64,000 bases of DNA from Williamsia sp. 1138 (GTDB lineage Bacteria; Actinomycetota; Actinomycetes; Mycobacteriales; Mycobacteriaceae). The stretch is taken from the NCBI RefSeq assembly GCF_002095435.2, contig NZ_MJEJ02000053.1:124001-188000 (forward strand). Direction: 5' to 3'. The translations under genes and the position numbers were made by a program. The notes beneath the pieces are model-generated. The model was not told the origin of the DNA, ran no database searches, and was given only the letters and a program-made list of their open reading frames with translations. This document shows, one piece after another, positions 17,672-60,296 of the stretch; position 1 is the first letter of the stretch, and each line of letters opens with the position of its first letter.

Positions 17672-17734
17672 ACTGCTTGTGTCTCAACCAACACACTTGA
17701 CGGTCAGATCCGGCCTTCGGCCTTCTCTTCCCAG

Positions 17735-17808
17735 TCGGGGTGGCGGGATTCGAACCCACGACCTCTTCGTCCCGAACGAAGCACGCTACCAAGCTGCGCC
17801 ACACCCCG
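17735..17808 (-). tRNA. tRNA-Pro (anticodon CGG)
   Basis: On the minus strand the acceptor CGGGGTG pairs with CACCCCG. The anticodon arm is CTTCG-TTCGGGA-CGAAG, giving anticodon CGG (Pro). The T arm carries GGTTCGAATCC. D arm GCGCAGCTTGGTAGCG is normal. Discriminator A; CCA is not encoded. Confidence 0.95.
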
Positions 17809-45520: not shown

Positions 45521-46597
45521 ATGGCCTCCATGACCGAATCCTCGACCGTGCTCGTGATGGTCTCCCCGGACCTCGCGGATGACGTCGCGCGTGTCGCCGC
45601 CGCCGCCGGATATCAAATCGTTCGTGCGCTTCCCGAACGGTGTCGCAGGGAGTGGGCAGAGTGCACCGCGGTGCTCGTCGATGCCAGCACCGTAGAGGCG
45701 ACACTGGCTTCCGGACTGCCCCGGCGGGGCGGGCTGCTCGTCGTCGGACTCGCAGGCGACGGACCACAGATGTGGCGCACCGCGCTCACCCTGGGAGCCG
45801 GCGACGGCTTTGTGCTCCCGGACGACGAGCACGCGGTGGTACAAGCGCTCTCCCGGATCGCTGAACCGATCGGGCCCTCCGGTGTGGCCATCGCCCTGAT
45901 TCCGGGCCACGGAGGCGCGGGGGCCTCGACGTTCGCCGCGGCTGTGGGGTTGGTGGCCTGCGAGAGGGGACTGAGCGGACTCGTCATCGATCTCGATGAC
46001 CTCGGTGGTGGGCAGGATCTCCTCCTCGGGGTCGAGGATCAGCCCGGGCTGCGCTGGCAAGAACTCACGCTGGAGAGCGGCCAGGTCGTGGCCGCCTCCC
46101 TGCACAACGCTCTGCCGCATGCCCGGGGAGGGCTGGCGATCCTCACCGGGCGTCGCGGCAGCGGCACCCCCGTCCGGCCAGAGGCCGCGCTCGCCGCGAT
46201 CGCCGCCGCACGGGGCAGCGGCGACGTCGTGGTGGCCGACTTGCCCAGGTGTGAGGGCGAGCTGCTGGATGCCGTCGTGGAAACCGCGGACCTGGTGGTG
46301 CTCGTGACCGCAGCGACGATCCGGGCCTGCGCCGCCGGACGCGAGATGGCTGCGCGCGTGCGGGCTCGCACCGGACGGGTCGAGGTCGTCGTACGCGGCC
46401 CGGCTCCGGGTGGGTTGCGGGCGGTCGAGGTGGCCGACGTCATCGGTGTGCCTCTGCTGACCGCGACTCGGCCCGATGTGCGGCTCGCGCACCAACTCGA
46501 ATCCGGGGGGATTGCTCTCACCCGGCGTTCGCCGCTGCGCAGGGCCGCGACCACGGTGCTCGACCGCGCGGTCTCGGTACGTCGGGTACTGCGGTGA
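45521..46597 (+). CDS. ssd: Ssd/CpaE-like MinD-family ATPase (Rv3660c-like)
   Basis: 358 residues. A receiver-like N-terminal domain without a phospho-Asp (about 8-115), then a MinD/CpaE-type ATPase: GHGGAGASTFAAAVG replaces the usual KGGxGKTT loop, LVIDLDDLGGGQD is switch I and VVVADLPR is Walker B. The loss of the signature Lys suggests weak or no ATPase activity. In M. tuberculosis the homologue affects septation; in Tad systems CpaE localises the pilus machine. It overlaps tadA by GTGA and leads the tad operon. Confidence 0.85.
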   Translation: MASMTESSTVLVMVSPDLADDVARVAAAAGYQIVRALPERCRREWAECTAVLVDASTVEATLASGLPRRGGLLVVGLAGDGPQMWRTALTLGAGDGFVLPDDEHAVVQALSRIAEPIGPSGVAIALIPGHGGAGASTFAAAVGLVACERGLSGLVIDLDDLGGGQDLLLGVEDQPGLRWQELTLESGQVVAASLHNALPHARGGLAILTGRRGSGTPVRPEAALAAIAAARGSGDVVVADLPRCEGELLDAVVETADLVVLVTAATIRACAAGREMAARVRARTGRVEVVVRGPAPGGLRAVEVADVIGVPLLTATRPDVRLAHQLESGGIALTRRSPLRRAATTVLDRAVSVRRVLR

Positions 46598-47790
46598 GTG
46601 CCGGCGGCGAAGGCGCGCATCCCGGCCGCGCGCAATTGCTGACCCGGGTCCGTGAGAAGCTCGCGGCCACCGCGCAGGATCCCACCCCCGAGGTGATGGC
46701 GGCCGTCGTCCGCGCGGAGGCAGGTGGCGTGCTGGGCGACACCGATCTGCTTGACGCCCTTCGCTTTCTGCAGACCGAACTGGTGGGTGCCGGACGGTTG
46801 GAGGTCCTGCTGGCCGGCCCGGCGGTCAACGACATCCTGGTGGTGGGACCGAAACAGGTCTGGACCGATCAGGGACGCGGCCTCGAACGGTCGGACGTGG
46901 AGTTCGAGGACGACGACGCGGTGCGCCGGTTGGCGATGCGGCTGGCCCTGGCCGCAGGCAAGCGGCTCGACGACGCGCAACCCTGGGTCGATGGCCAGCT
47001 GACCGGGCTCGGTCGACGCGGTTACAACGTGCGTCTGCATGCCGTCATCCCGCCGATCGCCGTGGACGGGACGTGCCTGTCATTGCGGGTGTTGCGTCCT
47101 GCGACGCAGAACCTCGACGCCCTGGCGCGGTCGGGCGCGATCGACCCGGAGGCCCTCGCGCTACTGGAGGCCGTCGTCGACGCGCGGCTGGCCTTCCTGG
47201 TGGTGGGCGGCACCGGGGCCGGCAAGACGACCTTGTTGTCGGCGCTCCTCGGGCGGGTCGATCCGGCGGAGAGAATACTCTGCGTCGAAGATGCCGTGGA
47301 GTTGGCGCCGCAGCACCCCCACGTGGTGCGGCTGGTCGCCCGGACGCCGAATGTCGAAGGCGCGGGGGAGGTCCCGGTACGGGCCCTGGTCCGGCAGGCG
47401 CTCCGGATGCGACCGGACCGGATCGTCGTCGGGGAGGTCCGAGGCGGCGAGGTCGTCGACCTGCTGACCGCGATGAACACCGGACACGACGGCGGCGCCG
47501 GCACCCTGCACGCCAATTCGACGGCGGAGGTGCCTGCGCGCATGGAGGCCCTCGCTGCCCTCGGCGGCATGGACCGGCCTGCGCTGCACAGCCAGCTCGC
47601 AGCAGCCATCTCGGTGGTGATCGGGGTGTTTCGGGATTCGTCCGGCAGCAGGGGTGTCTCGGAGATCGGGATGCTCCGCCGCGGCATCGACGGACTGGTG
47701 TGCGTAGAAGCTGTCTGGACTCGAGCGGGCGGCTTCACCCCCGCCGCAGCAGCTCTGGCCTCGCTACTGGACGCGAGGCTGGGTCGATGA
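46594..47790 (+). CDS. TadA/CpaF-type secretion ATPase
   Basis: 398 residues. Type II/IV secretion ATPase with Walker A GGTGAGKTTLL, Asp box, RTPNVEGAGEVPVRALVRQA (His/Asp boxes), Walker B region RIVVGEVRGGEVVDLL and GHDGGAGTLHANS. A 90-residue N-terminal domain precedes the conserved part. It would power assembly of a Flp-type pilus or pseudopilus. The GTG start overlaps Ssd and the stop overlaps tadB, so translation is coupled. Confidence 0.92.
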   Translation: MSAGGEGAHPGRAQLLTRVREKLAATAQDPTPEVMAAVVRAEAGGVLGDTDLLDALRFLQTELVGAGRLEVLLAGPAVNDILVVGPKQVWTDQGRGLERSDVEFEDDDAVRRLAMRLALAAGKRLDDAQPWVDGQLTGLGRRGYNVRLHAVIPPIAVDGTCLSLRVLRPATQNLDALARSGAIDPEALALLEAVVDARLAFLVVGGTGAGKTTLLSALLGRVDPAERILCVEDAVELAPQHPHVVRLVARTPNVEGAGEVPVRALVRQALRMRPDRIVVGEVRGGEVVDLLTAMNTGHDGGAGTLHANSTAEVPARMEALAALGGMDRPALHSQLAAAISVVIGVFRDSSGSRGVSEIGMLRRGIDGLVCVEAVWTRAGGFTPAAAALASLLDARLGR

Positions 47791-48623
47791 CCGCCGTGCT
47801 GGCTGCCGTCGGTCTGTCCGTCCTGTTGTGGGCGCGACCGCTAGCACAGACTCGCGCACATCAGCTGATCCCTGCTGATCCATTGCGACGCAGAATGTTT
47901 GCCGACCCGCTCGGGGTGGGACTGATGCTCGGGCCGGTGCTGGCGCTTGTTCTCGTCGGTGTCAGTGCGGCGCTGGCTGCAGCCATGGCCGCAGCAATGG
48001 CCCAGGCTCTGCTGGTTTCGCGGCGGCGCGAGCGGGCAGGGGCCGCAGAGATGGCGAGGCTACTCGCGGCGCTGGAGGTCATGGTCTCCGAGTTGAGGGT
48101 CGGTGCGCATCCCGCACATGCGTGCCGGCAGGCGGCGCAGGACTGCGTCGGTCCTGCGGATGCGGGGGCGGCGCAGATGCTGCAGATGATGGCGGGTCGT
48201 GCCGCGCTCGGTGGTGATGTCGCCGCGGGGATCGAGCAGTCGCAGGGGCGCCACGGCACGTCGTCGGGGTCGAGGGCCATCGGCTTCCACGCGTGGCAGC
48301 GGATCGCCGTCGCGTGGCGAACCGCTGAACAGTACGGACTCCCGATGGCCGAACTGTTGACCTCGGTGCGCGGCGATCTGTTGGCGCGCCAGCGTTTCCG
48401 CGCGCGGACGGCAGCGGCGCTCGCCGGCGCGAAGGCCACCGCGCTGGTTCTCGCTCTACTGCCGATACTCGGCATCCTGCTGGGACAGGCGATGGGGGCG
48501 GCGCCGGTGGCGGTGTTACTCGGTGGTGGGCTCGGCGGAATCCTGCTCGTGGTCGGGGTGGGCCTGGTGTGCGCCGGACTGCTGTGGTCGCGGCGGATCG
48601 TCGGCAAGGTGACGGGCCGGTGA
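47787..48623 (+). CDS. TadB-like inner-membrane protein
   Basis: 278 residues. N-terminal TM helices near 1-20 and 47-72, a cytoplasmic T2SSF-type helical domain (EMARLLAALEVMVSELRVGA, then RQRFRARTAAALAGAKATAL), and C-terminal TM helices near 212-262. It forms the membrane platform of the Tad pilus machine with TadC. The ATG at 47787 overlaps tadA by ATGA; the frame is open far upstream only by chance. Confidence 0.85.
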   Translation: MTAVLAAVGLSVLLWARPLAQTRAHQLIPADPLRRRMFADPLGVGLMLGPVLALVLVGVSAALAAAMAAAMAQALLVSRRRERAGAAEMARLLAALEVMVSELRVGAHPAHACRQAAQDCVGPADAGAAQMLQMMAGRAALGGDVAAGIEQSQGRHGTSSGSRAIGFHAWQRIAVAWRTAEQYGLPMAELLTSVRGDLLARQRFRARTAAALAGAKATALVLALLPILGILLGQAMGAAPVAVLLGGGLGGILLVVGVGLVCAGLLWSRRIVGKVTGR

Positions 48624-49222
48624 CCGGGGTCGTGGTCGCCGCTGTGGCCGCGGCTGCTGGTCTGCTGCTGGTCCCGGGCCCGGTGTGGTCGACGTACCGG
48701 ATCGTCGCTCCGCCGGTGGCACCGGCCCGCAGTCGGGTACCGCGGTGGCTGGGCAAGAAGAAACCGGTCGATGACCCTTTCGCCGCGGCCGCGAGCTACG
48801 AACTCTTCGCGGTGTGCCTGCGTTCCGGGCTGCCGGTCGCCGCGTCAGCGAAGGTGGTGTCGCAGTCGGCTCCGCCTGCGCTGGCGCGGATCCTCGCCCA
48901 GGCGTCCGATCTGTTGTCTCTGGGCGCAGATCCGTTACAGGCGTGGGCGATACCGGACGAAGCGGATCAGTCTGCCGCGATGCTGGCAGCAGTGACGCGT
49001 CGTTCGGCGCGATCGGGGTCCTCGCCGGTGCGTGGGTTGGAGGAGTTGGCCGACAACCAGCGCAGCGAGGCCCAAGACCGGGCGGCAGCCGCTGCCGAAC
49101 GAGCAGGGGTTGCGATCAGCGGACCACTCGGACTGTGTTTCTTGCCGGCCTTCGTCTGCCTGGGCATCGTGCCCGTGGTGATGGGCCTGGCGGGAAAAGT
49201 GTTCGGTGGCGGTCTGCTCTGA
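48620..49222 (+). CDS. TadC-like inner-membrane protein
   Basis: 200 residues. An N-terminal TM helix, a T2SSF-like helical domain (ASYELFAVCLRSGLPVAASA, GLEELADNQRSEAQDRAAAA) and a C-terminal TM hairpin (LGLCFLPAFVCLGIVPVVMG). The GTG start overlaps tadB by GTGA. It is shorter than proteobacterial TadC but usual for actinobacteria. Confidence 0.83.
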   Translation: MTGVVVAAVAAAAGLLLVPGPVWSTYRIVAPPVAPARSRVPRWLGKKKPVDDPFAAAASYELFAVCLRSGLPVAASAKVVSQSAPPALARILAQASDLLSLGADPLQAWAIPDEADQSAAMLAAVTRRSARSGSSPVRGLEELADNQRSEAQDRAAAAAERAGVAISGPLGLCFLPAFVCLGIVPVVMGLAGKVFGGGLL

Positions 49223-49263
49223 GATCTGCCGTGGACTGTCCATGGCGAGAATAGGGGGAATCG

Positions 49264-49470
49264 ATGATAGGCAACATGATTCGGAGTGTGCAGACTCGAG
49301 TTGCGGTGCTCATGACGGACGAGGACGGGATGTCGACCGCGGAGTACGCGATCGGCACCATCGCTGCGGCCGCCTTCGGTGCCATTCTCTACACGGTCGT
49401 GACCGGTGATTCGATCGTGTCCGCGTTGACGGGGATCATCGACAAGGCGTTGCAGACCACGGTCGGATGA
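49264..49470 (+). CDS. DUF4244 Flp-pilin-like protein
   Basis: 68 residues. EDGMSTAEYAIGTIAAAAFG looks like a type IV prepilin: Gly-Met cleavage context, Glu five residues later and a hydrophobic helix. It then ends IIDKALQTTVG. DUF4244 proteins occupy the pilin position in actinobacterial tad loci (Rv3656c). The ATG at 49264 follows AGGGGGAA. The stop overlaps the TadE-like gene. Confidence 0.88.
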   Translation: MIGNMIRSVQTRVAVLMTDEDGMSTAEYAIGTIAAAAFGAILYTVVTGDSIVSALTGIIDKALQTTVG

Positions 49471-49832
49471 TGGTGCGGCGCGTTCGTCGCCGTCTGCCGG
49501 CCGATGAACAGGGGATGGTGACGGTGGAGGCGGCGATCGCGCTCGCCTCGATTGTCGTGATGGTGGTGATCGGGGTGGTGGCGGTGGCCGCGGTGGCTGC
49601 TCACGTTCGTTGTATCGACGCGGCGCGGGAGGCGGCGAGGATTGCGGCGCAGGGTGATTCGGTTCGTGCCGAGCAGGTGGCGCGAAAGGTCGGTCCTGAT
49701 GGGGCGTCGGTGAGCATTCGCACGGAGGGAGAGTTGATCGTCGCACGGGTGCGTGTCGATGTGCCGTTGCTGCCTGGGGTGGAGGTGGGTGCGCGGGCGG
49801 TGGCGGCGGTCGAACCGGGCGGCGACGAGTGA
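49467..49832 (+). CDS. TadE-like pseudopilin (Rv3655c-like)
   Basis: 121 residues. ADEQGMVTVEAAIALASIVVM has the prepilin-like Gly/Glu context (GxVTVE), followed by one TM helix and a secreted domain with AREAARIAAQGD. It overlaps both neighbours by four bases. A decayed copy of its end is present at about 55165-55245. Confidence 0.85.
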   Translation: MMVRRVRRRLPADEQGMVTVEAAIALASIVVMVVIGVVAVAAVAAHVRCIDAAREAARIAAQGDSVRAEQVARKVGPDGASVSIRTEGELIVARVRVDVPLLPGVEVGARAVAAVEPGGDE

Positions 49833-50182
49833 GGATCGCGGGCGATGAGCGTGGCTCGGCGACGGTGGCCGGGGCGTGCGCGATAGCAGCTCTGGCGGGG
49901 TTGGTGGTGCTGGTTCTGTACGTGGGTGCTGCGGTTGCTGCGCGCCATCACGCCCAGTCGGCCGCCGATCTCGCCTCGCTCGCGGCCGCGTCGGCTCTGG
50001 TGCTCGGTGAGGCCGATCCGTGCGCGCAGGCAGAGCTGATCGCGGGGCGGATGGAGGTTGTCCTCGCGTCCTGCAGTCCGGATGGCGAGGATGTGGTGGT
50101 GTCGGTGAGAATTGCTGTTGACCTCGAATTGTTCGGTCGCCGTGACGCCTTGGCGACGGCGCGGGCCGGGCCGGTGGAGTGA
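49829..50182 (+). CDS. TadG-like/Rv3654c-like secreted helicase-locus protein
   Basis: 117 residues. GDERGSATVAGACAIAALAG begins a TadG-type TM segment; then HHAQSAADLASLAAASAL and a small domain with two cysteines (ADPCAQAEL, LASCSPDG). It ends the tad operon. The final 185 bases recur at 55273-55459 with about 97% identity, marking the edges of an insertion. The GTG start overlaps the TadE-like gene. Confidence 0.83.
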   Translation: MRIAGDERGSATVAGACAIAALAGLVVLVLYVGAAVAARHHAQSAADLASLAAASALVLGEADPCAQAELIAGRMEVVLASCSPDGEDVVVSVRIAVDLELFGRRDALATARAGPVE

Positions 50183-50639
50183 GTCGATCGTCTCCCGCGC
50201 TTACGGTCGCACGCCAGCGGATGTCTGATTGTTGTGCGGTGGCCGCGCGATTAGACGATCGATACCAGTACGAACCCCTCTGTGCCGTAATCGTGCGGGC
50301 GCCGCAGTGACGTTCAATCCACGGCTGGGGGTTGCCTAACGGAAGGGTGACTAAGTCGTGTGGGACCTCGTGAGAGCGAGGGCAGCGCGTTAAACAGTCA
50401 CTACTGGCGCTCGCCAACTCTTGCTGGAATCGCGAGTGAAAGGGCATTCTTACTAGGGCTCGTGCAACTCTTAAGAATAAAGTTGAATTGGAGTGTCTAT
50501 CGGCGAGTTTAGCGAGGGATTACTGCCTCTTTTTCTTAGTGCAACTAAGGAGTGAGGTTTTCTAGATTCAGTCGCGCGGTCCTGTCTCTCGTGTAGCGTC
50601 ACCTCATCACATCGGGCTGGGAAGCTACGAAGGGCCAAT
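50183..50639. other. left border of the putative island, no gene seen
   Basis: 457 bases between the tad operon and the next gene. GC content falls here, with stretches such as TTAAGAATAAAGTTGAATTG unlike the rest of the window. It should hold the left junction of the island and the promoter for the gene at 50640. I see no integrase, tRNA or IS end. Confidence 0.45.
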
Positions 50640-51776
50640 ATGTCAAGCGACGAAAGCAATCGGCTCAACCCGCTAGCGACCCTGGCTAAACAGTCCCAAG
50701 ACACTGCCAAGGGGTATCAAGATACCGCGGACAAGCTCCGTGCGAGAGCTGGTGCGTGGGGTGGTGCGATCCAGGCACTCGGTCTCGCAGCGGTCGCGTG
50801 GATTGGTTTTGACGAACTGGTGAATGTCTTTCCAACTCATGATCTAGGTTGGTTACTGGCAGGGTTAATTCTTTTATGCATTATTTTGATGGCGATAAGC
50901 GCGATCTACGTTGGTTGGAATCTTTCGGTCCAGAACAGGCCATTGGCTATGTCGTCGAACATACAAGACATGGTCGATAATCAAGAGATATCTGATACTG
51001 AGGCCGACCGAGTTCGGGGTGTATATCACCAATTCGCCAAGCTAAACGGGCTTAACGTTCACGATCAGCCTGAACCTCAGCCGGGGCCTAGCGAGACTAA
51101 AGGTCAGCTTGCCGAGAGGCGTAAAGCTGCAAATGCAATAGTTTCCAACGCAATGCAGGCTTATTTCGCGCCCGCAACTCTGTACGAAGCAAATGTAGAG
51201 AGGGCCTACAGATACGACCGGCTGACTAACACTGTCTCAGCGCCGACTGACGACGAGGAACTAACGAAGCTCAACTTCGGCCTCACGCGCGCGGCGCAGA
51301 TTCGTGCGGACCTACTCCTTACCCGGGCGAGAGCGGCAGTCGTCGTAATACGAGATCGCGTGCGGAGGGCGACGATAGCAAAGAAGCCACTAATCGCCAT
51401 CGGTGTGTTCGGCGCGTCTCTGATCGCCGTGTGGTTTTTTTCGGACGCTATGAGGGCGTACAACACATCTGATTCAGATAAGATCGCTGCCGCGAAGGCG
51501 TGCGGTGACGCGCGGAAGGCGCTCAATGATGGTGGAGCAACTTTTACGCTGCCTGATGACTGCAATGCGGCGAATTCCTCCGGAGAAGGCGAGGCCCAGA
51601 CGCCAAGTGGTATGGCGGTCGCAAATCTGGTCGCTTTATCCGCCGATCTATCGAACTGCGAAGCGGCGGCGGTCGTCGAGGGCAATTTACCCAAAACTCT
51701 AGAGAATCGGAAGGTTTGCGCGTCAATTCGGACAAACATCGACGTCCAGTTAGCATTAATCGCCAACTATGAGTAA
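50640..51776 (+). CDS. unknown three-TM membrane protein in the island
   Basis: 378 residues, no family recognised. An N-terminal helix with heptad-like Ala/Gln spacing (1-38), TM helices at about 41-60 and 70-93, a cytoplasmic helical domain (about 100-245) and a third TM at 249-266, followed by an external domain with four cysteines likely forming two disulfides (C285, C305, C338, C351 region). The ATG follows GAAGGG. Codon use is less GC-biased than in the neighbours, which fits recent acquisition. It may be a membrane effector or sensor of the island; that is a guess. Confidence 0.7.
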   Translation: MSSDESNRLNPLATLAKQSQDTAKGYQDTADKLRARAGAWGGAIQALGLAAVAWIGFDELVNVFPTHDLGWLLAGLILLCIILMAISAIYVGWNLSVQNRPLAMSSNIQDMVDNQEISDTEADRVRGVYHQFAKLNGLNVHDQPEPQPGPSETKGQLAERRKAANAIVSNAMQAYFAPATLYEANVERAYRYDRLTNTVSAPTDDEELTKLNFGLTRAAQIRADLLLTRARAAVVVIRDRVRRATIAKKPLIAIGVFGASLIAVWFFSDAMRAYNTSDSDKIAAAKACGDARKALNDGGATFTLPDDCNAANSSGEGEAQTPSGMAVANLVALSADLSNCEAAAVVEGNLPKTLENRKVCASIRTNIDVQLALIANYE

Positions 51777-52449
51777 TCAGCTTAGGTCGGGATCGAATCG
51801 CGCCTGTTTAGTTGGATGAACTCCTTCACGCCAAGCTGGTCTAGACGCCTGGCACCAGACGCGCTCCGGAGGTCTTACTTACGCCGTCACTACAACTGGT
51901 GGGGCAGGCGAGGGCATAGACGTTCGGTGTCCCCACGGGGCACTCGCCCAAATGAAGTGAAGTGGCGGGGTCATGGGTTGGCCGAGACATACAGCAGTTC
52001 CTCATTGCCCACGGGATAAGATTAGTTATGCTCCGCTAGCGCTCCGGGGTAGAGCGAACAGGCAGCGACCTATGCGGCGCCAAGTCAACGCTCTACTCGT
52101 GACCTATGACCCACCGGGCGCAGGTGGAGGGCGTAGATACGGCAGCGAAGCGGTTCCTCGCGAAAGCGAGCACGGTTGCGGTCACGTGGGTAGCTCCGAC
52201 CAAGAGTTTCACCGTTGGGAAAGTGGTGCAGCGGCTCTCGGGGTCATATGCCAGTGCATCTTAGCTGTTCAGAGGGTATTAAGCGTGCATAGTTACAGCA
52301 AGGCGACGAAGATCTGGACGATTGCGAAAAGCGTGATCATTACCGTTAGCCCAGCAAGAAGGTTCGGACCGTACTCCTCACTCCTTGCGGTGCAGCGTCA
52401 AGGGTTGACGCGCAGAGCGTAAGGATGGACCGAACTGGACCGCGAGAGC
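51777..52449. other. gene-poor stretch in the island
   Basis: No convincing gene. On the minus strand, 52293-52397 reads a short hydrophobic peptide without a start codon (YGPNLLAGLTVMITLFAIVQ, then IFVALL). The rest has stop-rich frames on both strands, as expected for decayed mobile DNA. Confidence 0.4.
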
Positions 52450-52951
52450 CTACGATACGAATAGGGCCTCGGCTGTCGCCAGGATCAGCCAGGCGGCCCC
52501 CGGCAACTCCTCCGTTGATACCGTGAAAATGGCGACTGCGGGGATCGTGAGGATTGACTGCCCTACATGTTTTAAGCGTAGTGGCTCAGCGACTTCAAGT
52601 CTGATGTGCCTTCGGCTAGGCAGCGACCCATTGTTGAGTTAGCTCTGCCAACCGGTCGCTGGCAGTCGATCCGATTGCCCCGATCTTGTTAGGAAAAATC
52701 CCGATGTCGAGATCCAGTGTCGAGTCCTCGGTGAATTGAAGCGGGAGGTTACGCGGGTGATGTTTGTCGCGGCAGCTACGGTGCCAACTCTGCAGTGCCT
52801 CGAAGGGTTGCATCGCGTCCGTCGCTCCACCGAACGTGTATGCAGACCCTCGCCGCGTCCCTCGCGGCGAGGGTGAAGCGGCCACGAACTCCTTCGTCGT
52901 CAGTTGGCCCTGAGGAAGCGTGGCCGTGCTGGGTTGTTCGCTCCTGCGCAC
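52450..52951 (-). pseudogene. decayed minus-strand gene, frameshifted
   Basis: Two minus-strand segments have coding-like composition in different frames. The first (about 52870-52616) reads LQFTEDSTLDLDIGIFPNKI, then GAIGSTASDRLAELTQQWVAA and stops. The second (52638-52450) continues in another frame with RRHIRLEVAEPLRLKHVGQS, then ILTIPAVAIFTVSTEELPGA and a second hydrophobic stretch, stopping at TAG; it has no start codon. Together they look like one gene broken by a frameshift, ending in two TM helices. I cannot name the family. Chance is possible. Confidence 0.35.
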
Positions 52952-53199
52952 CGGGTGCGGTCCTGTCGGTCGTGGCGAAGTGGATGTAGGACCGTATCAG
53001 CGTGCTCTGGGGTGCGGTTCTGCGAAGGGTTGAGGCCACTTCGGAGGTGGCGCGACGTGCGCTGCCCGGCCGCGCAGGAGGTTGCCGTGGCGGTTGAAGG
53101 CGCTCTTCGGGGCCTTCGGGAAGTACTTTTTCCTGTTCAATGTCAGAAGCTCGTGATTGAGTGCGTAACATCGTGCGAGTGGATGGGAAGGAACGTTTC

Positions 53200-53472
53200 G
53201 TGCCAAGCATCGAGACAATACGATTCGAGTTGGAAGGTCGGCTTCGTGATGTCGAAGAGTCGATTGGTAAGACTCATCTGAGCATCCGCTGGGAGCCGAT
53301 GTCGAAGGTTGCTCGGGTCGGGGCTTGTATCACCAACTACACGTGGGAACCTCGTATGCAGGTTCTGGAGCGGCTGGTTCAGTTCCAGCAGGCGCATGCG
53401 GATGATTTTGCACTCGACTTCGACATCGTTCCGTTGAACGCTGTCCAGGACGAGGAGTTCGCTGAAGCCTGA
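53200..53472 (+). CDS. small protein coupled to a HEPN-like gene
   Basis: About 90 residues: an N-terminal helix (IETIRFELEGRLRDVEESIG), a beta-rich middle (LSIRWEPMSKVARVGACI) and an acidic end (FALDFDIVPL, DEEFAEA). No family recognised. I chose the GTG at 53200 because AAGGAA lies seven bases upstream; the frame opens at 53161. Its TGA shares a base with the ATG of the HEPN-like gene (TGATG), so the two are translated together. The order small acidic protein then HEPN is what a toxin-antitoxin pair would show, but the antitoxin role is only inferred. Confidence 0.6.
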   Translation: MPSIETIRFELEGRLRDVEESIGKTHLSIRWEPMSKVARVGACITNYTWEPRMQVLERLVQFQQAHADDFALDFDIVPLNAVQDEEFAEA

Positions 53473-53885
53473 TGGGCGTTCGGAAGTGGCACCTTGCGCG
53501 TGCCAAACATCACAAAGACGTGTCTGACTATTTGCTACCGGTTCACGAGGACTGGGCGATGGTCGCGTTGTTCTATTCAGCCATGCACTTGGTGCATTCG
53601 TCGCTGGCTGACGAAATGACCCTGAACAAGGATGAACGGCATCCCCGTAAGCACTCAAGCATAGAGCCTGGCGCGCGGGGGACTAATCAGATGGTCCATT
53701 CTCTCTATTCCCCCATCGCCGTCTCGTATATGAGTTTGATGGAGCTGTCTCACCGCACCCGGTACGACATCGCGCAACTTGGCCCGATGACTGTTCCCGG
53801 TGCCACGCAGCAGTGGCAGTCGATTCAGCGGTTCTGTACGAATCTGAACGATGGTCGGCCGTGGATACCAAGCCAAGCGCAATAG
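53472..53885 (+). CDS. HEPN-like domain protein
   Basis: 137 residues, all helical. It begins KWHLARAKHHKDVSDYLL and has DWAMVALFYSAMHLVHSSLA, the first two helices of many HEPN proteins (W..ALFYSAYH pattern). RHPRKH (56-61) fits the RX4-6H ribonuclease motif, and LSHRTRYDIAQL recalls the SRxARYD helix. HEPN domains in toxins and defence systems are RNases. The gene is coupled to the preceding small gene and followed, 93 bases later, by another HEPN-like gene. Assignment rests on pattern by eye. Confidence 0.6.
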   Translation: MGVRKWHLARAKHHKDVSDYLLPVHEDWAMVALFYSAMHLVHSSLADEMTLNKDERHPRKHSSIEPGARGTNQMVHSLYSPIAVSYMSLMELSHRTRYDIAQLGPMTVPGATQQWQSIQRFCTNLNDGRPWIPSQAQ

Positions 53886-53978
53886 ATTTCGATTATCCCT
53901 CAACAACGACCGAAGGTCACGTGGGGAGTACCACTTTATTCACTTCGGTTGTTGGACAAGACTGGCTAAGCTGCAGCA

Positions 53979-55116
53979 ATGTCGAACCAGGAGTCGATCA
54001 ACTACGAGACTCGCGTCAGAGCAGCCGTGAGGCCGTTGCTGGCGTTCAATGCACAGTTGCTTGAAGAACTGGACGACGAGGATGGCGCGTTCGGCTTTTG
54101 GCGCGGTGGGTGCGACTGGAAGACGTATGCGCTGCTCGCCGATTACTTGATCCAATCTGTCCTTGGAACTACGACTGCCCTCGAGGCTGCGGGGTTAACT
54201 GCGATCGAGCACCGGCAGGTCACCTACTCGGCAAACGCCAAAGCGAGGGTGGCGTACAAAGACTTGCATGCAGGGAGTCTGACTCCGACTCAGTACTTGA
54301 ATGCTGTTATCGGGTCGAGTGATGCGCGGAAGCGAAGCCTACGAGCGGAGTCGGCCGCCGAGCACACTTTTTTCCATATGGGCCAGGCGCTCGACAGGTT
54401 CTCTGCAGCGCTGGTGATCGTTGGTGGGTTCGGGGTCAAAGATGTAGTCACCTCCGATTGGAAGACGGTCCAGGATCTATGGGCAGCACTTGATGAGGAT
54501 CGTGAGAAGGGCACCGTCGCGCCGCGTGGAACCGCAGGCCGGGACATTCAGCGGCGACTGCTCGCGCCCGCTGGACTGCTGCAAAACTACGGCTCTGAGA
54601 TCTTGGCTGGCTTGGCTTCGGGACACCCGAAACGCGTTGACCCACAGGTCGCCGGCAAAGCGCATGAGTCTCCTACAGAAGGATGGCAGCATCATCCAGC
54701 CGTTCTACCTCCAGCCGAAGTGGAGCGAGCTGCAAACGATGGTCTACGGGCCGATGCAAGAGGTACGTGCGAGGGGCGGGCCTAGTAGAGATGGTTGGAG
54801 GGCTTCGTTTCTCATCAATCGTACTGAAGACGTGCTCGATGGCCTCCTCAACTCGTTGTGCGAGTTCATTGCTGCGCTTACAGAGACGATGGCAGCCTGT
54901 TGGTCCGAGCGAAAGGCGTCACCGGCCGTGATTATCCAGACGGGTAGACAGTGGCGGACAGTCGAACCGAACTCTCCTGATGGACGATTTGACGGCTACG
55001 GTAGCGCCCCGGCGATGATGCCTAGCGCCGACGGTATTGCAATGCATCCGAACGATGCGAAACGGCTGCGGGCCGGGCGTGTCACGGACGATCGCGTGCA
55101 GGACTGGAGGGACTAA
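53979..55116 (+). pseudogene. second HEPN-like gene, frameshifted
   Basis: Residues from 53979 read MSNQESINYETRVRAAVRPL, DDEDGAFGFWRGGCDWKTYA, ALLADYLIQSVLG and on to RDIQRRLLAPAGLLQN. After about 54580 this frame becomes unlike protein, while the +1 frame continues with SWLAWLRDTRNALTHRSPAK and a good C-terminal half to the TAA at 55116. RNALTH is an RX4H HEPN motif, so the break falls just before the catalytic site. A frameshift near a CAAAAC run (about 54585) is the simple explanation: a mutation, a sequencing error or, less likely, programmed shifting. Intact it would be about 378 residues. No closer family can be named. Confidence 0.65.
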
Positions 55117-55154
55117 GGACACTCGGCGATGCCCCACAAGGCGTCCGCGTCCCA

Positions 55155-55459
55155 GGTGGCCGTCGCTGCTCACTTCCGCCGTTTCGACGCGGCGTTTGAA
55201 AGAGTTGATCGTCGTGCTGGCCCGGGTCGATGTGCCGTTGCTGCCCAGGGTGGACCTCGCGGGTTCTTCAGCCCTGGTGCTCGGTGAGGCCGATCCGTGC
55301 GCGCAGGCAGGGCTGATCGCGGGGCGGATGGAGGTCGTCCTCGCGTCCTGCAATCCGGATGGCGAGGACGTGGTGGTGTCGGTGAGAATTGCTGTTGACC
55401 TCGGATTATTCGGTCGCCGTGACGCCTTGGCGACGGCGCGGGCCGGGCCGGTGGAGTGA
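55155..55459 (+). pseudogene. decayed second copy of tadE/tadG 3' ends
   Basis: 55273-55459 repeats the end of the TadG-like gene (49996-50182) with about eight changes in 187 bases. Left of it, 55165-55250 matches parts of the TadE-like gene (GCTGCTCAC...TCGACGCGGCG, then GAGTTGATCGTCG and GTCGATGTGCCGTTGCTGCC) with internal deletions. The joined frame stays open but lacks both TM segments, so it is not a working pilin. It marks the right edge of the island. Confidence 0.82.
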
Positions 55460-55615
55460 CGGGCAGGAGTTGTCCGAGTAGGCAGACGGGGGTCTGTGAG
55501 GTAGACAGGACAGGGCCGGTGTATTGGGCGGACGTGTCGACGTTCACACTGGTGCGCGATCATGTGACTGCGCGACGCGAAGATATGCTTCGCGGAACAG
55601 AATTTACCGAAGTGA

Positions 55616-56350
55616 ATGGTGGGGGATTTCTTGAAGAAGCGTTTGTTGGCGGTCGTGTCCGGACTCATCGCAGTGATCTGCATGTCAGGACTGGCGGCCG
55701 GCTCAGCCAACGCTGCTCCTCGCATTGCACTCGGTGGCGGCGCGGGCATCATCATCAACAACAGTTCGGTGTGCACGCTGACAGCGATCGGCCACGACTC
55801 CGCAGGTCGCCTGGTCGGGCTGACCGCAGCCCACTGCGCCGAGACCGGCGACGCCATCCGAGCCGAGAAGGCTGCCGGGGCCGGCGTCATCGGCCAGGTC
55901 ACGTCGTCCAACAAGTACTGGGACTACGCGGTGATCCGCTTCGACGCTGCCAGGGTCGAACCGCAGCGAAACTACCGCGGGTTGACCCTTGGCGGATTCG
56001 GTCCGCAACCGGCCTTCGGCCAGAACGCCTGCAAGGCAGGCCGCACCACCGGCACCAATTGCGGCGTCGTCTGGGGCACTGACCCCGAGAGCCCGACCTT
56101 CACCCTCAACCAGAGTTGCTCCAACCACGGTGACTCCGGCGCGCCTGTCGTCGTCGACAACAAGCTCGTCGGCCTGCTCAACGGTGGCCGCATCTTCAAG
56201 AACATCGGCGGCACCGGCCTGAACTTCGACATCGAATGCAACGACCCGGGCAACCCGGTCCACGTGCCGACGCTCAGCACCGGGATCGGCTACATCATGA
56301 AAGACCTGAACGGGCAGAACATCGTCGGCAGTGGCTTCCGCCTGATCTGA
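55616..56350 (+). CDS. secreted trypsin-like serine protease
   Basis: 244 residues. Signal peptide KKRLLAVVSGLIAVICMSGL to about residue 34 (SANAA). Triad: His in LTAAHCAE, Asp in KYWDYAVIRF, Ser in NHGDSGAPVV. Cysteine spacing and GDSGAP resemble the secreted S1 proteases of actinobacteria (Rv3668c type). The ATG at 55616 is used; a TTG at 55631 after GTGGGGGA would give a cleaner signal peptide. It probably acts outside the cell or in the wall. It lies just right of the island, next to a Q/G/Y-rich membrane protein on the other strand. Confidence 0.88.
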   Translation: MVGDFLKKRLLAVVSGLIAVICMSGLAAGSANAAPRIALGGGAGIIINNSSVCTLTAIGHDSAGRLVGLTAAHCAETGDAIRAEKAAGAGVIGQVTSSNKYWDYAVIRFDAARVEPQRNYRGLTLGGFGPQPAFGQNACKAGRTTGTNCGVVWGTDPESPTFTLNQSCSNHGDSGAPVVVDNKLVGLLNGGRIFKNIGGTGLNFDIECNDPGNPVHVPTLSTGIGYIMKDLNGQNIVGSGFRLI

Positions 56351-56380
56351 TCGTTTCGGCAGTGCCGGGCCGGGCAAGTT

Positions 56381-57346
56381 CTACTTGCGCTTGACGATCC
56401 CGGCTATTCCGGCGATCACCAGCCCGATCCCGCCGACGAGGGTCAGCCACAGCCCGACGCCGACGTTGATGGTGATATCGAAGACCTCGGCGGTCTCCTT
56501 GGCGTCCAAGATGTCGGTGATGTCGACGATCGCGATGAGTGCCACCAGGATTCCCGTCACCACCGCGACGATGCCGGCCGTCAGATGCAGGCCGGACCGT
56601 TTGGCGATCAGAACGCTGATCACACCGAAGATTCCGGCGACGACGGCAAGGACCAAGGTCAGGACGCCATCATTGGCGTCGGTATCGGAATCACCGCCGC
56701 CGAGCCCGCTCTCGCTGAACGTTCCCGAGACCCACGGCAGGAATGCCGAGATCGCGATGACCACCGCGATGACCGCAATGACGAGCCCGATGATCTTGAC
56801 GGCCTGCGACACCGGCTCGGCAGTCGGCGGTGAGCCGTACGCGCTGCCGTATTGCGGTTGACCCTGGTTGGGTTGCGGCGCACCGTAAGGATTCTGACCG
56901 GCTTGATAAGGCTGCTGCTGTCCACCCTGCCCATAGGGTGCCTGCTGACCGTAGTGCGGTTGGCCCTGCGGCGCACCGTATTGCGGCTGACTCTGAGGGG
57001 CGCCGTACTGCGGCTGCGAGGGTGATCCGTAGTGCTGCGGCGGCTGCTGACCGCCGTACTGATTTGGCTGTCCTGCACCTTGCTGACCCTGCCCGTACTG
57101 ACCCTGGCCGTACTGATCCTGCCCGTACTGACCTTGCCCGTACTGGCCCGGCTCGTACTGTCCCGGTGGTGGGCCGCCGTGCTCCGGTGGACGCGGCGGC
57201 TCTGCGCCTGCGGTCGAATGATCGGTTCCGGCGGGCTTCGAGACGTCCGGCCGCGGACCGCCCGGCTGGGGATTCACCGGTGGTGGATTGGTGGACGTGA
57301 TGCGGGTCTGGTCATACGGGTCGGATTGCCCGGGTGTCTGCGTCAT
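56381..57346 (-). CDS. membrane protein with Gln/Gly/Tyr/Pro-rich N-terminus
   Basis: About 321 residues. The first 185 are low-complexity, with QYGQG-type repeats near 65-95 and PQYGAP-type repeats near 115-170. Four TM helices follow: about 188-210 ([20 protein letters not shown]), 235-255, 262-283 and 295-318, ending KRK. The repeat part is cytoplasmic and may phase-separate or bind partners; relatives occur widely in mycolic-acid bacteria without known function. The ATG at 57346 follows GAGGCAAG; the frame is open slightly further upstream. Confidence 0.8.
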
Positions 57347-57580
57347 GGTTCTTGCCTCTTCGCTGATCGGATTTCTCACGGTAAACCCGATGCGCCCTCA
57401 GAAATCCATTTCCGCGCACGGCAGAGCGAAACTGAGCTCGGATTTCATGCACGTGATCGACAGTGCTAATTGTTCGCTCCGTCGTGGGCCTCAGTGAGCG
57501 GTGTTTGATTGTTCGCTACAGGCCGGGCCCTATTGCGCACTCTTCCCTCGTCTCTCAGTCGCTGCGCTCCCTCGTTCCTC

Positions 57581-57648
57581 ACTGCATCCTGCGCGGCCCG
57601 TCCCTGCGCTCACGACTGCATCACGCGCGGCCCACCCCTGCGCTCACG
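57581..57648. repeat. 34-bp tandem direct repeat (two copies)
   Basis: 57581-57614 and 57615-57648 read ACTGCATC..GCGCGGCCC.. and ..CCCTGCGCTCACG, with three differences. The second copy includes the helicase stop and last codons, so slippage here has duplicated the gene's very end beyond the stop. Confidence 0.7.
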
Positions 57649-59957
57649 GGCAGCTCGTGCAGGATCAGGTTCAGCACCCGAATGGCCCCGTCTTTGTCTA
57701 GCGGTTCGTTGCCGTTGCCACATTTCGGGGACTGCACGCACGACGGGCACCCGGTCTCACACCCGCACCCCGACACCGCATCTCGGGTGGCGCGGATCCA
57801 GATCTCGAAGGCCTCGTGTCCACGGTCGGCGAAGCCGGCTCCGCCGGGATAACCGTCGTAGACAAATACTGTGGGCAGGTCGGTGTCGGGATGCAGATTG
57901 GTCGACAGTCCACCGATGTCCCAGCGATCGCAGGTCGCCACCAGCGGCAACAAACCGATCGCGGCATGTTCGGCGGCATGCAGCGCTCCGGGAAAGCGCA
58001 CCGGGTCCACCCCCACGGACTCCAGGGCCTCAGGCGTGATCGTGTACATGACGGCCCGCGTCGAGAGCGTTTGCGGCGGCATGTCGAGCTCCACCGAATC
58101 CAGGACCTCGCCGGAGATCAATTTGCGCAGGTATCCAACCACCTGATGCGTGACGTCCACCCGCACCAACGCCACGGTGAGCGGCCCATGGGTTGCCGTC
58201 TCGATCACGTCGGTGATGTCGACGATGGTGGTCTCGCGGGCGCTGGTGGTCCAGTCCGGTTCCTCGGGATGCACCAGTGCCAGACCGTCGTCGAGGTCGA
58301 GTTCGTCCACTACATAACTCTCGCCGCGGTGGATGTGGACGGCGCCCTTGTGGACAGTCGACATCGCCCGGCCGGTGTCGACGGTGCCGAGCAGCTGCGC
58401 GGTGGTCTCGTCGACGATCATCACCTGCCCGCCGATGCCGCCGCGAATGTCCACTGCGCCGTGCGGGTCCACCCCGGCCGCGACGTACCAACCCGCCTTG
58501 CGGTGTCGGATGAGTCCCTGACGGGCGAGATCTTCCAGCAGTTCCCGCGCCCCGAAGGCGTCGACCTCGGCGTCTTTGAGCGGCAGTTCCGCAGCCGCGC
58601 AGAGTAATTGCGGACCGAGCACATACGGATTGGTGGGGTCGATGACGGTGGCCTCGACCGGTTTGTTCAGCAATGCCTCTGGATGGTTCACCAGATAGGT
58701 GTCGAGGGGGTCATCGCGGGCGATCAGCACGACCAGTGACCCTTCGCCGCGTCGGCCTGCTCGCCCGGCCTGTTGCCAGAACGACGCGACAGTCCCCGGA
58801 AACCCGGCCACCACAATGGCATCGAGTCCGCTGATGTCGACGCCGAGTTCCAGTGCATTGGTGGTGGCGACCCCCAGCAGCTTCCCGTCGGCGATGTCGC
58901 GTTCGAGGGTGCGGCGGTCGTCTGCGAGATAGCCCGCTCGGTAGGCGGCCACCCGGGGCGCCAACGCCGGGTCGACCTCCTCGAGTATCCGTTTGGCCGA
59001 CAGCGCCGTCAGTTCGACACCGCGACGACTACGGACGAAGCACAGGGTCCGGGCGCCTTCGAGCACGAGATCGGCAAGGATGCGCGCGGCCTCGGCCCCG
59101 GCCTGCCTGCGCACGGGAGCGCCGTGCTCGCCGGTGATCTCGGGGACGAAACCCGGCTCCCACAGTGCAACCGTGCGTGCGCCGTGTGGTGACCCGTCTT
59201 CGGTGATCTCCACGCAGTCGGCGCCGATCATCCGGCTCATGGCCGCGCCGGGGCTTCCGGCGGTGGCGCTGGCGCCGATCACGACCGGATTCGCGCCCGC
59301 CGCCCGCGCGATGCGGAGTAGACGGCGCAGGACCAGCGCGGTGTGCGAGCCGAATACGCCTCGGTAGTGGTGGCATTCGTCCAGGACGATGAATTGCAGT
59401 CCGCGCATGAACTGCCGCCAACGGCCATGGGACCCGAGAATGCCTATGTGCAACATGTCCGGGTTGGTGAAGATCCACCGGGAGTGTTCGCGAGCCCATT
59501 GACGCACGGCGGGTTCGGTGTCGCCGTCGTATGCGCAGGGTTGGAGATGCATGAACTCTTTGCGCCCGGCCAGCAGTGAGGACACGGACCGCAATTGATC
59601 GGAGCCGAGCGCCTTCGTGGGTGCGAGATACAACGCGGTTGCCCTCGGATCCTCGAGAAGCCTGGACAGGATTGGCACCTGGTAGCCAAGCGATTTTCCG
59701 GAGGCCGTTCCCGTCGAGAGCACCACATGTTCTCCGGCCCAGGCGTGTTCGGCTGCAGTGACCTGGTGGGTCCACGGTGCCTGTACGCCGGATTCCACCA
59801 GGGCCTCGCGAACCGGACCGGCGACCCAATTTGGCCAACTGGCGAAAGCGGCTGTCCTGGAGGGAATTACTGACTTGTGTGTCAGGGGCGAGTCATCAGG
59901 ATCGATCCCCGCAAGCGTCCGGGCGAGCAGTTCGGTGCCGAAGTCTGCGTTACTCAT
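57621..59957 (-). CDS. DEAD/DEAH helicase with DUF1998 domain (MrfA/YprA-like)
   Basis: 778 residues. SF2 helicase: Q-like region, Walker A STGTASGKS (81-89), APTKALGSDQ, DECHH Walker B, SAT motif (GASATAGSP), then FVRSRRGVELTA and QQAGRAGRRGEG. The C-terminal DUF1998 has a four-Cys zinc site in CGCETGCPSCVQSPKCGNGN. MrfA of Bacillus, of this type, repairs mitomycin cross-links with MrfB, an exonuclease. Mycobacterial homologue Rv3649 is uncharacterised. It is divergent from cspA. The ATG at 59957 gives the standard start. Confidence 0.9.
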   Translation of the reverse strand: MSNADFGTELLARTLAGIDPDDSPLTHKSVIPSRTAAFASWPNWVAGPVREALVESGVQAPWTHQVTAAEHAWAGEHVVLSTGTASGKSLGYQVPILSRLLEDPRATALYLAPTKALGSDQLRSVSSLLAGRKEFMHLQPCAYDGDTEPAVRQWAREHSRWIFTNPDMLHIGILGSHGRWRQFMRGLQFIVLDECHHYRGVFGSHTALVLRRLLRIARAAGANPVVIGASATAGSPGAAMSRMIGADCVEITEDGSPHGARTVALWEPGFVPEITGEHGAPVRRQAGAEAARILADLVLEGARTLCFVRSRRGVELTALSAKRILEEVDPALAPRVAAYRAGYLADDRRTLERDIADGKLLGVATTNALELGVDISGLDAIVVAGFPGTVASFWQQAGRAGRRGEGSLVVLIARDDPLDTYLVNHPEALLNKPVEATVIDPTNPYVLGPQLLCAAAELPLKDAEVDAFGARELLEDLARQGLIRHRKAGWYVAAGVDPHGAVDIRGGIGGQVMIVDETTAQLLGTVDTGRAMSTVHKGAVHIHRGESYVVDELDLDDGLALVHPEEPDWTTSARETTIVDITDVIETATHGPLTVALVRVDVTHQVVGYLRKLISGEVLDSVELDMPPQTLSTRAVMYTITPEALESVGVDPVRFPGALHAAEHAAIGLLPLVATCDRWDIGGLSTNLHPDTDLPTVFVYDGYPGGAGFADRGHEAFEIWIRATRDAVSGCGCETGCPSCVQSPKCGNGNEPLDKDGAIRVLNLILHELPVSAGVGRA

Positions 59958-60296
59958 CGTTCCAGTTCATCACCTCGTAATACTAGGCCCGCCGAATGCA
60001 GCAAAGCGAAGTTCGCCCGGCATTCACGACCCACAATGCGCTGCCGGCGACGTTTGAAATCAAGTTGAACTCTCCACTGTTGTGCACGCCGAGAACATGA
60101 TTGACTCATTGTGGTCGCAGCTCTCGGGGGGCGGGTTCAAGCATTTGGCCTTCTCACTCGCAGATCGTGTTGCGGGCGTGGTACTGAAGGTCAGTGTGCG
60201 GGCGTGCTCGCAAGCGGCGCCAGTAGGTATGGCGGTCGGAACCGGCCCGGCGCGGGTAACTCTCCGCCGCTACCGGTGATAGAAAAGGAATACGGC

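Follow-up and report, generated by a model that had tools for sequence, protein, structure and literature searches.

The 64,000-nucleotide (nt) stretch of contig NZ_MJEJ02000053.1 from Williamsia sp. 1138 analysed here (the window, with positions counted from its first base) carries a tadE gene and a tadG-like gene, both intact, followed by an island of low GC content that has a second, incomplete copy of the tadE-tadG end at its far side (Table 1). The cargo proper extends from 50183 to ~55158, and a tad remnant fills 55159-55459 and adjoins the right flank, in which genes for a trypsin-like secreted protein, a membrane protein and a helicase follow one another. The final 204 nt of tadG recur in this remnant without gaps and at 94% identity (BLAST E 6e-90); within the last 187 nt the two copies differ at 7 positions, every one a transition. 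Identity between the copies ends at the stop codon, where the left copy reads TGA followed by GTCGATCG and the right copy TGA followed by CGGGCAGG, so that a direct repeat of a gene end reaches up to the tadG stop while tadG itself is whole. A first-pass annotation of the window had reported that the last 187 bases of tadG recur at 55273-55459 with about eight changes and that diverged TadE pieces lie to the left of that copy. The repeat is real, although slightly longer and better matched than described, and the TadE pieces are indeed there, in their original order and with 81% and 85% identity to the left-side tadE. The right copy is a remnant without counterparts of 49626-49729 (within tadE) and 49784-49978 (reaching from the end of tadE into mid-tadG).

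The base composition of the island sets it apart from its surroundings. Its GC content is 0.573 (50183-55158), compared with 0.702 in the left flank (45521-50182), 0.650 in the right flank (55460-60000) and 0.647 in the window as a whole, which bears out the earlier remark that the DNA between the copies is AT-richer; the 4976-bp segment with the lowest GC content in the 64 kb begins at 50087. GC content at third codon positions is 0.57-0.68 in the open reading frames (ORFs) of the island and 0.76-0.84 in five adjacent genes.

Comparison with relatives, among them Williamsia sp. 1135 (G001), W. soli (G002) and W. limnetica (G007), indicates that this DNA was inserted. In the nearest of them, Williamsia sp. 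1135, the site is empty: a single 204-base tadG end is joined directly to the equivalent of window position 55460 onward. The left-flank match runs to the tadG stop, the right-flank match begins within the tadG end, and the two overlap on that one 204-base end. A DNA search of 61 genomes, the strain's own included and with few candidates scored per genome, matched 39 of them, nearly all through the tad flank; one (G037) matched a gene pair of the island, and the island was found in none of the eight other Williamsia genomes. Inspection of the tadG-helicase gap itself gave the same answer in seven of the eight, the contig of the remaining one (G003) stopping ~0.4 kb behind tadG, and protein searches with the 137-amino-acid (aa) and 268-aa island proteins found neither in any of the eight. 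The 378-aa island protein has a partial relative of 31% identity in one of them (G005), at another place in its genome. The earlier proposal that the island is the footprint of an insertion is thus supported by the empty site, the eight genomes and the GC content; neither the same genes throughout the genus nor a GC content equal to that of the flanks, the two observations named beforehand as speaking against it, was found. We conclude that a lower-GC island flanked by two tadG ends is present and that it is a genuine islet, acquired horizontally and accompanied by a duplicated gene end.

The gap varies in other ways within the genus. In W. soli and W. limnetica, tadG is separated from the trypsin-like gene by a gene for a small secreted protein in reverse orientation (on the minus strand of locus L022 from 6357 in the former, at the equivalent place of locus L023 in the latter), which neither the window nor Williamsia sp. 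1135 has. The gap measures 94 bp in W. deligens. A record titled Kitasatospora arboriphila NRRL B-24581 (L040) has a tad region of the Williamsia type, and its title is probably a mislabel.

The two parts of the right copy appear to differ in age. Its tadE pieces show 78-87% identity to the left copy, Williamsia sp. 1135, W. soli and W. limnetica alike (57-69% to three further Williamsia genomes, G003, G004 and G006), and its tail is 96% identical to the left copy and 93% to Williamsia sp. 1135. A single, evenly decaying duplication would not give such a difference, and the right copy looks like a mosaic with its joint near 55256-55273. The pattern fits either a crossover near 55256-55273, with an old remnant to the left and the chromosomal tail to the right, or a later gene conversion of the tail. 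The first-pass annotation had left the choice between a duplication of the tad 3' end and a recombination between two copies of it; the mosaic appearance leans to recombination, within the tadG end. Since the left tail and the right tail are closer to each other (7 differences in 187 positions) than either is to Williamsia sp. 1135, the insertion probably postdates the split from that strain.

The tadG tail itself had already been replaced at an earlier time. Along tadG, the window is 85-97% identical to W. soli over nt 1-273 and only 51-62% identical over nt 274-351, the last 78. Williamsia sp. 1135 shows the same drop against W. soli, while W. soli and W. limnetica are 90% identical in this part. 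To place these values we drew on a survey of the family, in which the tadG profile TIGR03816 matched 394 of 401 genomes; 140 loci among the matches listed, ranked by score and none of them from Williamsia, were taken, and tadG could be parsed in 138. With 135 of these 138 (3 failed a check of the gene end), the window and seven other Williamsia genomes, 143 tadG ends were compared. Among 64 of these ends there were 119 pairs at least 85% identical upstream, and in these pairs the tail was on average 0.033 better conserved than the preceding segment (standard deviation 0.077). Only 3 of the 119 fell below -0.1, namely window-W. soli (-0.29, the lowest), Williamsia sp. 1135-W. soli (-0.22) and Williamsia sp. 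1135-W. limnetica (-0.13), all of which cross the same branch; the value for window-Williamsia sp. 1135 was +0.06. Because the drops share a branch, the last ~80 bases of tadG were swapped before the window strain and Williamsia sp. 1135 separated, in an ancestor of both. Outside Williamsia, the closest protein matches to the new tail among the loci compared have 63-70% identity. The second half of the right tail is 97% identical to the left and 72% to W. soli, so both window tails are of the swapped type, and it follows that the island did not enter a site like that of W. soli in one step. A one-step insertion of the e14 kind into a W. soli-like site was rejected on this ground, as the displaced right tail is of the swapped and not of the W. 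soli type.

Searches for an enzyme or a landmark that could account for the insertion were negative. No recombinase was found among 11 island ORFs searched against Pfam or among 5 searched against NCBIfam, PADLOC and PHROGs, shorter ORFs not having been scanned, and no transposase was found among the 11; three phage serine integrases compared with the island gave nothing better than E 0.2. An insertion sequence or transposon was set aside, as none of the 7 inverted pairs of 14-28 nt lies at the island ends (the search covered neither inverted ends below 14 nt nor a target duplication). So was a tRNA-linked island, the sole tRNA found in the window being at 17734-17808. The same applies to a plasmid or phage origin judged by DNA, with no plasmid match of 51777-53160 and no phage match of 50183-55158. 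These ORF, inverted-repeat and tRNA scans agree with the first-pass statement that no integrase, insertion sequence end or tRNA is visible at the island.

We propose, at a probability of about 0.5, that the island arose when incoming DNA, bearing the cargo together with its own tad 3' end, recombined inside the tadG end. The incoming molecule, presumably from a close Williamsia, would have held ~5 kb of cargo beside its copy of the tad 3' end and would have recombined within the chromosomal tadG end. On the left, the incoming tail would complete the chromosomal tadG up to its stop codon, such that the gene stays whole; on the right, the chromosomal tail would be displaced behind an already decayed tadE piece brought with the cargo. 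The cargo would have decayed afterwards, leaving one gene broken by a frame change and 1.4 kb without genes. Homologous recombination of the Campbell type would be the likeliest route, favoured because no recombinase was found and because repeat lengths vary in comparable loci. The tail swap and the island insertion may both reflect recombination in the tadG end with incoming DNA bearing a tad end.

Several points weigh against this proposal. Gene conversion between the copies would yield the same mosaic, and the left tail, had it been imported, would be expected to show the same decay as the right tadE pieces, unless it had a function in its previous host. No donor was found: for the window tail, phage records gave no match, viral contigs no exact match of 24 nt, and plasmids only two 32-nt matches at E 0.05. 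The tadG tail of a Rhodococcus-group locus (L118) matched a single Microbacterium phage, present in two deposits, over 46 nt (E 9e-4). The seven differences between the tails are, in addition, too few to polarise them firmly.

Other tadG loci of the family provide comparable structures. The tadG-helicase gap, measurable in 129 loci of the survey, ranges from -8 to 13,195 bp (median 434). A downstream repeat of the last 700 bases was detected in 12 of the 138 loci at E 1e-3, and in 5 (L099, L118, L136, L144 and L185) the repeat ends no more than 2 bases from the stop. From the longest to the shortest, these five repeats measure 569, 109, 61, ~37 and 26 bp, and they are of mixed origin. Two of the loci hold cargo. 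In L144, on the same contig of Rhodococcus sp. 06-462-5 as L047, a 61-base repeat surrounds 7.3 kb in which an AIPR gene and a kinase gene lie; in L118 (G477, of the same genus as L047) a 569-base repeat that includes a whole second tadG surrounds 6.9 kb. A truncated serine integrase lies behind the tadG stop, 10 bases from it in L047 and 36 in L118. The fragments begin at residue 256-266, the N-terminal half being missing, and a 122-aa part of the one in L118 is 66% identical to gp34 of Mycobacterium phage BabyBack; the integrase fragment had no match in viral contigs. L118 and L047 share two further genes and may therefore not be independent, perhaps representing one event. The right tad copy of L118 belongs to another lineage (86% identical to its left copy and 88% to L128), and the left copy is 92% identical to L144. 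Identity of the window island with the element in these loci was rejected, as they have no protein in common and the window island has no serine-integrase remnant.

The remaining loci are of other kinds. In L099 (G472) the tadG end recurs beyond the helicase gene, as does the end of another long ORF, and this is probably an ordinary tandem duplication around a core gene; L136 (= L053) has a local repeat 163 bp away. Both were set aside as local duplications, yet they are kept in the count of 5 of 138. In L185 (G026) the tadG end recurs 0.75 kb downstream as a 37-base copy (89%) that overlaps the end of a 231-aa ORF; this ORF occupies the intervening space and may be a comparable islet of one gene. 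In L240 (G651:C16), away from tadG, a truncated serine-integrase end adjoins a gene that looks like a relative of one of the Rhodococcus-group backbone.

These loci bear most directly on an alternative in which the tadG 3' end is the attachment site of a site-specific element that brought a substitute gene end, as e14 does in icd, and has since lost its integrase. Under this alternative, the exact stop of identity at the stop codon and the wholeness of tadG are expected, the earlier tail swap is a possible trace of such an element, and the truncated integrases directly behind tadG in L118 and L047/L144, with tadG-end repeats beyond the cargo, are precedents; indeed, a lost integrase can be entertained because this integrase-linked cargo occupies the same place. 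Repeats near the stop are, moreover, more frequent at tadG ends (5 of 138) than at the ends of other ORFs of at least 150 aa in the same loci (6 of 975 with a repeat within 3 bases; Fisher p 0.007), although this test was devised once the pattern was known, two of the six control repeats belong to the same duplications (L099 and L118), and at most three of the five tadG repeats are cargo insertions. A first control under a different rule (repeats of at least 40 bp anywhere in the last 150 bp) gave 8 matches in 985 ORF ends, and only three of the five tadG repeats reach 40 bp. Serine integrases leave only a very short common core, whereas the repeats here vary in length from locus to locus; no integrase fragment was found in the window island (best E 0.2), and those of L118 and L047 lack their N-terminal half and sit in a shared backbone. 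We regard site-specific integration as doubtful on balance.

Also unlikely is a history of two steps, in which a local tandem duplication of tadE-tadG was followed by an unrelated foreign insertion between the copies while the second copy decayed. The tandem orientation of the copies, the right copy as a decayed pseudogene with internal deletions, and the duplication in L099, with the helicase gene between the copies, are all in keeping with it, but the insertion must then have hit the stop codon exactly by chance, and gene conversion is needed to hold the right tail at 96% while the tadE part dropped to 81-85%. A further alternative concerns the empty site: the island could predate the split from Williamsia sp. 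1135, which would have lost it by recombination between the tails, leaving a scar instead of a virgin site. The structure in that strain is what looping-out would leave; the strain also carries the swapped tail and lacks the gene for a small secreted protein that W. soli and W. limnetica have at this place. The left and right tails nevertheless differ less from each other than either does from Williamsia sp. 1135, which this history accommodates only if gene conversion kept them alike, and we consider it very improbable.

Within the cargo, no family was found in Pfam or NCBIfam for the 378-aa protein, judged by eye to be a probable membrane protein; its profile recovered 1 of 296 genomes in a class-wide sample (its own), and protein searches of 151 genomes found it in two (its own and G005), the 137-aa protein in two (its own and G037) and the 268-aa ORF in its own only. 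In G005 (L030, 817-2890) the distant relative of the 378-aa protein adjoins a gene for an OGG-like DNA glycosylase. The pair of 103- and 137-aa proteins gave nothing better than E 0.07 in Pfam, NCBIfam, PADLOC and PHROGs and has no relatives in PDB, and no relative turned up in a scan of genome contigs that used the 137-aa protein aligned with its G037 counterpart. By its appearance the 137-aa protein may be HEPN-like; its single-sequence model was unusable (mean predicted local distance difference test score 45).

The pieces of the broken gene match residues 5-201 (44%) and 211-381 (41%) of one 382-aa Rhodococcus plasmid protein, with the frame change falling between 54563 and 54595, so either the gene is broken or there is an assembly error at this place. 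Relatives of the 268-aa ORF occur on three plasmids, in two of them close to genes for an Abi-family protein and a site-specific integrase, and protein searches of plasmids found no relatives of the 137-aa and 378-aa proteins. In viral contigs the 378-aa protein had no relative, and for the 137-aa protein one stretch scored as a relative and no locus was returned. None of five island proteins matched a known anti-phage defence system in PADLOC at E 1, and 51777-53160 contained no Rfam structured RNA at E 0.1. The first-pass description of the island as gene-sparse thus holds for the 1.4 kb without a gene and not for the rest, which has four plausible genes, one of them broken.

Table 1. Features of the tadE-tadG region and the island behind it (window positions)
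Feature	Position	Strand	Basis
tadE, intact	49467..49832	+	NCBIfam NF041390 TadE_Rv3655c, E 7e-29
Intact tadG-like gene (117 aa) whose 3' end forms the left repeat copy	49829..50182	+	NCBIfam TIGR03816, E 2e-27; Pfam PF13400
Left copy of the direct repeat	49979..50182	+	Repeat alignment
Foreign-type tadG tail, swapped before the split from Williamsia sp. 1135	50102..50182	+	Identity drop against W. soli
Inserted low-GC DNA, not found in eight other Williamsia genomes	50183..55158		DNA searches, GC content
378-aa probable membrane protein, orphan	50640..51776	+	One distant relative, in G005 (31%, residues 3-143)
Stretch without recognisable gene, ~1.4 kb	51777..53160		No plasmid DNA match, no RNA family
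103-aa protein, gene 1 of a rare two-gene pair	53161..53472	+	Same pair and order in G037, 50% identity
137-aa protein, gene 2 of the rare pair	53472..53885	+	57% to G037 homologue; 2 of 151 genomes including its own
Broken gene, two pieces in different frames (53979-54785, 54490-55116)	53979..55116	+	Both match one 382-aa Rhodococcus plasmid protein
tadE piece of the right copy	55159..55194	+	81% to 49590-49625
tadE piece of the right copy	55201..55254	+	85% to 49730-49783
Right copy of the tadG 3' end, joined without a break to the native right flank	55256..55459	+	Repeat alignment, empty-site comparison
Trypsin-like secreted protein, first native right-flank gene	55616..56350	+	Pfam PF00089 at cut-off; conserved in Williamsia sp. 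1135, W. soli and W. limnetica

Taken across genera, a few events hint at a wider pattern, which we put forward tentatively: the tadG 3' end may be a recurrent landing site across the Williamsia-Rhodococcus family, at which cargo brings its own end, swaps the ARAGP-containing TadG tail and leaves the old or spare end at the far side, homology of the tails letting cargo without an integrase leave, return and cross species. If so, the C-terminus of TadG evolves by element-borne replacement. Landing sites at the ends of protein genes are already known (icd), and the islet is in this respect a new case of a known kind; what is unusual is the earlier swap of the tail. The end of a pilus-subunit gene was altered at least twice in one lineage, and integrase-linked cargo stands behind the same gene in another genus. 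A recurrent landing site would help to explain, as far as few events allow, the strong variation of the tadG-helicase gap in the family, and it would offer a clean case for asking whether integrase-less islands spread via homology to a conserved gene end. Among the papers listed in literature searches, no title or opening of an abstract presented tadG as an integration site. Some Mycobacterium abscessus prophages with serine integrases sit inside protein-coding genes, according to PMC9934374, and PMC5721134 states that the integration site of Rhodococcus cluster CA phages is not known.

The closest known parallel is the e14 prophage in icd of Escherichia coli, which (PMC6379469) is inserted at the 3' end of the gene, leaves the gene whole and has a second, 163-bp copy of the 3' end at its far end. 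The tadG island is like e14 in its position at the 3' end of a protein-coding gene, in the wholeness of that gene and in the second end copy on the far side. It differs in that e14 is a prophage placed by site-specific recombination, while no recombinase was found in the tadG island, and in that the tadG copy extends into the neighbouring tadE and the tadG tail had been swapped earlier. The Rhodococcus-group islands (L118; L047 = L144) resemble it in having cargo directly behind the tadG stop, a second tadG end at the far side and a right side continuous with flank DNA common to relatives, but they start with a truncated serine-integrase gene, share two backbone genes and have no protein in common with it. 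Integrase-less islands flanked by att-like repeats are known as cis-mobilisable elements. The tadG island likewise has cargo between direct repeats and no recombinase found, although tadG-end repeats vary in length between loci and no helper integrase is known to act on them. Finally, the tadG-helicase gap of mycobacteria, which varies in gene content and holds PE_PGRS genes in M. tuberculosis, is the same gap, with the same neighbours, as the one that the window island occupies.

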